From assembly GCA_026399015.1 (NCBI GenBank), contig JAPLRS010000040.1, positions 1-64,000 on the forward strand: a stretch of 64,000 bases of DNA, read 5' to 3'. A program made the position numbers and the translations under genes. Below are positions 7,652 to 8,744 of the stretch, one piece after another. This DNA comes from Methylococcales bacterium. GTDB lineage: Bacteria; Pseudomonadota; Gammaproteobacteria; Methylococcales; Methylomonadaceae. The notes under the pieces are model-generated. The model was not told the origin of the DNA. It saw only the letters and a program-made list of their open reading frames with translations, and made no database searches. Each line of letters starts with the position of its first letter. Within the stretch, counting starts at the first letter, position 1.

Positions 7652-8728
7652 ATGTCTTTAGTTAAGTTGGATATTTATTCACTCAGAAATATCCAAAAAG
7701 AATCTTTTTATCCCACTTCTACTATTAATTTGTTTTATGGTGAAAATGGAAGTGGGAAAAGTTCCATTGTTGAAGCTATCTTTATTTTAGGGCGTGCTAA
7801 ATCATTTCGTTCTCATTCAATTAAATCTGTCATAAGTTTTTCAGATACTCAATTAATTGTCTCAGCTCAACTTCTACAATCTAATGGCAATAATCTAAAT
7901 TTAGGTGTGCAATTAGATAATAAAAACATTCGTTGCCATATCAATCATCAAATCACTAAAAAAAGATCTGATTTAGCTTATGCTCTGCCATTACAAATTA
8001 TCCATCCAAAAAGTTACGAATTATTAGATGGAGGACCACAATTAAGACGCGAGTTTTTAGACTGGGGCGTATTCCATGATAATGAGAATTTTTTAACTTT
8101 ATACAGTAAGTTTAAGGTCGCTTTAAATCAGCGAAATGCATTACTCAAATCAAAGCAAGTCCAGCATATTCATGTTTGGAATAAAGAATTGATTTATTAC
8201 GGTACAATAGTTAACAGTTATCGAGATATTTATTTACAAAAATTTAAACCAATATTTTTAAATATTCTTAAATGTTTTTTTCAAATTGAAAATATTGATT
8301 TAAAACTTTTACCAGGTTGGGATACCACAATCTCATTAGAAGATATTTTATTATCAACACTTGAAAAAGATCTCCGTTATGGGTTTACTCAAAATGGACC
8401 TCATCGAGGGGATTTTCAATTAACTATTGATGATAGATTAGTAAAAGAAGTAGTTTCAAGAGGTCAGCTTAAATTATTTGTTATTAGTTTAAAACTTGCT
8501 CAAATGCAATTATTGTTAAGTGAGCAAGCTAATAACGGTTGTTTTTTAATTGATGATTTCTCAGCTGAATTAGATATCGATAATAGAGAAAAACTACTAC
8601 TTTATTTATCTAAAATGAATTGTCAGGTTTTTATAACAGCAACTGAAATTTCTGAGTTCGGAAACTTAAATAAAATTAATAACTATAAAATGTTCCACGT
8701 GGAACATGGCAATATAAAGTCAGTGTAA
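7652..8728 (+). CDS. recF: DNA replication and repair protein RecF
   Basis: GENGSGKSSIVEAIFILGRAKSFR; GPHRGDF; position in dnaA-dnaN-recF-gyrB. Confidence 0.97.
   Translation: MSLVKLDIYSLRNIQKESFYPTSTINLFYGENGSGKSSIVEAIFILGRAKSFRSHSIKSVISFSDTQLIVSAQLLQSNGNNLNLGVQLDNKNIRCHINHQITKKRSDLAYALPLQIIHPKSYELLDGGPQLRREFLDWGVFHDNENFLTLYSKFKVALNQRNALLKSKQVQHIHVWNKELIYYGTIVNSYRDIYLQKFKPIFLNILKCFFQIENIDLKLLPGWDTTISLEDILLSTLEKDLRYGFTQNGPHRGDFQLTIDDRLVKEVVSRGQLKLFVISLKLAQMQLLLSEQANNGCFLIDDFSAELDIDNREKLLLYLSKMNCQVFITATEISEFGNLNKINNYKMFHVEHGNIKSV
8691..8706. promoter_or_regulatory. parS: parS site 1 (ParB-binding), inside recF 3' codons
   Basis: Perfect 16-bp palindrome TGTTCCACGTGGAACA. Confidence 0.93.
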
Positions 8729-8744
8729 TGTTCCACGTGGAACA
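8729..8744. promoter_or_regulatory. parS: parS site 2, immediately after the recF stop codon
   Basis: Second identical TGTTCCACGTGGAACA. Confidence 0.93.

Follow-up and report, generated by a model that had tools for sequence, protein, structure and literature searches.

Twin parS palindromes at the recF–gyrB junction of a Methylococcales bacterium and parS sites within the recF genes of Gammaproteobacteria

In other bacteria, CTP-bound ParB loads on parS sites, slides along the DNA and condenses the flanking sequence, and ParA moves the resulting complex. That parS can lie inside recF is known from Pseudomonas aeruginosa (PMC3909081, PMC5521831). There, both near-oriC recF sites, parS1 and parS2, are intragenic, while parS3 and parS4 occupy nearby intergenic regions; the first two share with the locus described here the gene and the 16-bp sequence, that of parS2 being identical (PMC3909081, PMC5521831, PMC4368675). 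According to PMC4368675, synonymous recoding of intragenic parS lowers ParB affinity, the published changes TTt CAt GTa GAg fitting the FHVE frame seen here, and one oriC-proximal parS suffices. In Caulobacter, too, an added parS cluster is preferentially accommodated at recF–gyrB (PMC5815017); this unexplained hot spot, however, stems from artificial insertion in a bacterium of another class, whereas the site analyzed here is natural and partly embedded in codons. Compared with P. aeruginosa, the present locus has lost the mid-gene site and carries one copy behind the recF stop codon; additional sites were not found.

The twin palindrome and its genomic setting

The window, a stretch of 64 kb, contains the plus-strand genes dnaA (4903..6219; TIGR00362, 588 bits), dnaN (6541..7641; TIGR00663, 319 bits), recF (7652..8728; TIGR00611, 315 bits, cut-off 172) and gyrB (8771..11188; TIGR01059 and NF011501, above cut-off), all identified by NCBIfam profiles. 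Two perfect palindromes, TGTTCCACGTGGAACA, occur at 8691-8706 and 8729-8744 with a pitch of 38 bp, exactly where a preliminary description had placed them. The repeat unit is longer than first noted, each core forming part of an 18-bp palindrome, ATGTTCCACGTGGAACAT (8690..8707 and 8728..8745, neither assigned to a strand), within a 19-bp direct repeat. Copy 1 falls in the last 12 codons of recF, where ATG TTC CAC GTG GAA CAT encodes MFHVEH; the 18-bp form of copy 2 takes in the final base of TAA, and its 16-bp core opens one base later. The peptide and the start of the second core are as originally described. The next gene downstream is gyrB. No further copy exists in the window even when three mismatches are allowed, in agreement with the earlier statement that the pair stood alone there; shuffled sequences gave a mean of 0.12 matches and never reached two. 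A genome-wide search, which the preliminary description had proposed, found TGTTNCACGTGNAACA at the twin only (2,696,958 bases in 47 contigs, 86% complete), the chance expectation for the exact 16-mer being 0.0003 copies per genome at the base composition of the window. No candidate for a high-affinity ParB loading point other than the twin has therefore been identified, in an assembly from which, at 86% completeness, further parS sites may be absent.

Both copies equal the 16-bp palindromic consensus of the chromosomal parS of ParB/Spo0J, and they lie about 2.5 kb downstream of dnaA, which marks the oriC region, within the dnaA-dnaN-recF-gyrB cluster. The locus thus shares with such sites the exact consensus, the perfect palindrome, the proximity to dnaA and the presence of parAB in the genome; it differs from them in general in that the assembled genome holds just two sites, with a pitch of 38 bp. 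The parA and parB genes, whose absence the preliminary description had named as grounds for abandoning its reading, are found at 5147-5920 and 6361-7221 of L151 (contig C35 of the same genome, G000), after mnmG and rsmG and on a separate contig from the twin, so that both the cognate ParA and the cognate ParB are encoded. The ParB protein (TIGR00180, 200 bits) is full-length, with the N-terminal, HTH and dimerisation domains ParB_N, HTH_ParB and ParB_C, and the solved chains nearest to it are ParB proteins. The nucleoid occlusion protein Noc was considered as the cognate protein and rejected: the score of 226.6 bits is below the Noc cut-off of 315, the gene adjoins parA, and the nearest solved chains are those of ParB. 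In other Gammaproteobacteria, parAB are usually described as lying near oriC. The distance from twin to parB is about 268 kb in the single-contig relative G019 and about 416 kb on one contig of G031; this separation of 268-416 kb in well-assembled congeners, unlike the usual neighbourhood, counts against the main explanation given below.

A small ORF of about 112 amino acids (MTIKKRGLGRGLEALL...; L151 5917-6255) lies between parA and parB; it has no Pfam match and opens with a GLGRGL-ALL stretch shared with the ParB N-terminus. In the congeners G004, G013, G029 and G031, an ORF of 145-155 amino acids directly upstream of parB partially matches TIGR00180. The ORF upstream of parB may have arisen by duplication and truncation of ParB, and its product might act on ParA.

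Conservation in the family and across gammaproteobacterial recF

The recF copy is perfect in all 26 Methylobacter-type junctions read, and FHVE is written TTC CAC GTG GAA in every one of them; for the average conserved recF residue, the most frequent codon is found in 69% of the genomes in the genus comparison. Nine of the ten histidine codons in the recF gene of the window are CAT, the single CAC being the one in parS. Copy 2 is perfect in 19 of the 26 junctions and reads TGTTTCATGTGGAACA, one change from the consensus, in the other seven. The 38-bp pitch is constant across these junctions, and the twin is also present in two further genera of the family (L010, L272). Among the loci compared, the nearest relative with a name is a Methylobacter MAG (L115), whose RecF is 64% identical to that of the window, on a par with many genus members; the window thus probably belongs to an organism of Methylobacter type within the Methylococcales. 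Six congeners yielded no site at all; their assemblies contain no recF above cut-off, and they are therefore not counted as lacking parS. In L026 (genome G023, 1501-1638), the whole twin unit is tandemly duplicated to give four perfect parS sites at pitches of 38, 47 and 37 bp, of which three follow the stop codon. The second unit does not code for protein, and one base is missing from its spacer. Conservation is thus seen at the level of DNA: the wobble bases are invariant, and both the non-coding copy 2 and the duplicates in L026 are kept.

The idea that twin parS sites as such are a rarity across bacteria was rejected, since at least 118 stretches from many phyla carry them, although within the phylum they occur in only 9 of 399 sampled genomes. 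A preferred pitch was likewise rejected, no clear period being apparent among the 137 parS pairs listed in a scan of 22-52 bp. When the phylum was scanned at 38-68 bp, pitches extended up to 61 bp. A pitch of 38 bp is accordingly not taken to have a role of its own, and the genus-constant pitch is most simply explained by a constant length of the RecF tail. Among the pairs listed in the 22-52 bp scan (L032-L149, many phyla), 15 of 137 are closer than 35 bp, a scarcity perhaps set by the length of DNA that two ParB dimers cover.

For the class as a whole, 149 recF genes were read from a sample of 274 gammaproteobacterial genomes, with parS defined by at most one mismatch. A tail site is present in 117 of the 149 and a site about 660 bp before the stop codon in 124, both being found together in 107. 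The mid-gene sites share one reading frame without exception (124/124), giving DWG-x-FHVE, and this motif is written in parS-forming codons in 111 of 114 cases in the class sample. In L003, L005-L007, L365 and most of L183-L332, the tail site likewise has a second parS in frame upstream of it, at a distance of about 620 bp. At the tail, CAC, GTG and GAA/AAA occur together in 168 of 182 genes with FHV[EK], against 14.9 expected from the codon frequencies of each gene; the corresponding p-values are too small because genes were treated as independent. A degenerate codon search for [M/V/L]FHVE[H/Q]G in the 274 genomes, some of whose matches lie outside recF tails, returned TGTTYCACGTGGAACA throughout, with the single exception of G114 (CAT). 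The phenylalanine wobble position (TTC or TTT) is free, as it is in the parS consensus. The comparison across hundreds of relatives suggests that parS DNA, more than the needs of RecF itself, dictated two short stretches of the protein.

ParB loss and the weighing of rival readings

The fate of the tail after loss of ParB was followed in the order of G311, which includes Escherichia coli on the RecF tree, with tails from 84 recF genes (E. coli K-12 counted). Of the 64 ParB-positive genomes, 58 have a tail parS, one mismatch being allowed; of the 20 ParB-negative genomes, 1 does, this second group including, by judgement, five with weak or plasmid-like ParB matches as well as E. coli K-12, whose chromosome was not searched. 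The Fisher p of about 1e-12 for this link is uncorrected for relatedness, and the RecF tree, built without the tail, needs just two changes of ParB status, so that the phylogenetic support amounts to two independent losses only. Both changes point in the expected direction, and the constraint vanishes upon ParB loss in these two cases. ParB-less tails read MFTVEKG (E. coli), MFRVEHG, IFHIKSG or LFEVNVG: the F, V/I and G tend to persist, from which it follows that the protein seems to want roughly F-x-V-x-x-G, whereas H and E/K vary freely. Judging from these tails, parS seems to supply the H, E/K and H/Q residues together with their codons.

It could be argued that the FHVE(H/Q) tail is kept for the function of RecF and that the match to parS arises as a consequence of the peptide sequence, since the tail peptide is widespread and part of it outlasts ParB. 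A partial counter-example of this kind is family f196 (L339, L344, L345, L347), which is ParB-positive, adjoins a large ParB-less clade on the RecF tree and has kept MFHVEHG with CAT, one mismatch from parS. The retention of the peptide despite CAT means that some protein-level constraint exists; the recF site of this family looks as though it were fading. The check suggested in the preliminary description, whether conservation of the MFHVEH tail is confined to genomes that keep parS, gives a largely affirmative answer in view of the codon counts and the ParB link, f196 being a partial exception. An explanation by RecF function is nonetheless very unlikely: it leaves unaccounted for the jointly fixed wobble bases and the drift of H and E/K upon ParB loss, FHDN or FNDD replaces the mid-gene FHVE in genes that have lost the DNA site there, and copy 2 of the window lies outside any coding sequence.

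Equally unlikely is a role of the pair mainly in regulating recF–gyrB transcription, through ParB or another bound protein, with segregation secondary. The twin does sit between the two genes, and in P. aeruginosa an excess of ParB reduces recF–gyrB expression (PMC5521831). At the native ParB level, however, the same paper reports that genes beside the intragenic parS1 and parS2 are unaffected in parB or parS mutants, and gyrB transcription in Caulobacter is unchanged by ectopic parS near gyrB (PMC5815017); a promoter scan at the twin gave nothing convincing. A transcriptional role, which the preliminary description had also suggested, is possible, though disfavoured at native ParB levels (PMC5521831). 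That the palindromes form a transcription terminator or other hairpin rather than a ParB site has a negligible probability: a scan does report a terminator-like match on the minus strand at copy 1, but a hairpin formed by a perfect palindrome would lack a natural loop, copy 1 is part of the recF reading frame, the minus strand has no known gene here, and the 16-mer both equals the ParB consensus and tracks the presence of ParB.

A probable chromosomal centromere and its proposed imprint on RecF

The twin is very probably the oriC-proximal parS of the bacterium's own chromosomal ParABS system, with the recF copy belonging to a widespread two-site arrangement in recF; ParB would be expected to occupy the pair. 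The proposal in the preliminary description that the pair forms a chromosomal parS cluster is borne out by the exact ParB/Spo0J consensus, the location near dnaA and the parAB genes of the genome. By analogy with systems known elsewhere, ParB-CTP dimers would load at one copy or the other, form closed clamps and then slide outward over recF and gyrB, and ParA would separate the complexes once the origin has been copied. The two sites 38 bp apart would then act as redundant loading points over recF–gyrB.

Many gammaproteobacterial recF genes carry two in-frame parS sites, one mid-gene and one in the tail, and each DNA site very probably sets the codons at its position and many of the residues they encode (FHVE/FHVK). 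The Methylococcales stretches L003, L005-L007 and L365 retain a tail site and, about 620 bp from it, a mid-gene site, and show no post-stop copy within the stretch examined. In the family of the window, the mid-gene position, which is occupied by a site in most other gammaproteobacterial recF genes, has decayed (8070..8085, plus strand, in the window; TATTCCATGATAATGA, DWGVFHDNE, six mismatches), and a post-stop copy is found at +3; in L034 and L372 the two sites lie at -38, in the tail, and at +9. On the simplest reading, a second near-oriC site was maintained but moved, the decay of the mid-gene site and the appearance of a copy right behind the stop codon having produced the 38-bp twin; the order of gain and loss can be inferred only. 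It seems likely that recF represents an ancestral two-site centromere of the Gammaproteobacteria, that DWG-x-FHVE and FHVE/K are largely parS imprints, and that the sites can move by a few hundred bases while two are kept beside oriC.

While parS inside recF itself was already known, the scale of recF-embedded parS across the Gammaproteobacteria looks new: no description of such a class-wide imprint on RecF was found in the open-access literature joining parS, recF and ParB, and priority is uncertain. If true, a centromere shapes a conserved protein across a whole bacterial class, and RecF motifs at two positions would consequently need correction before being read as functional residues. The observation also bears on why recF–gyrB is a favoured location for parS, as in the Caulobacter insertion hot spot (PMC5815017). 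Moreover, the gain, loss and movement of a centromere would become readable from recF sequences alone.
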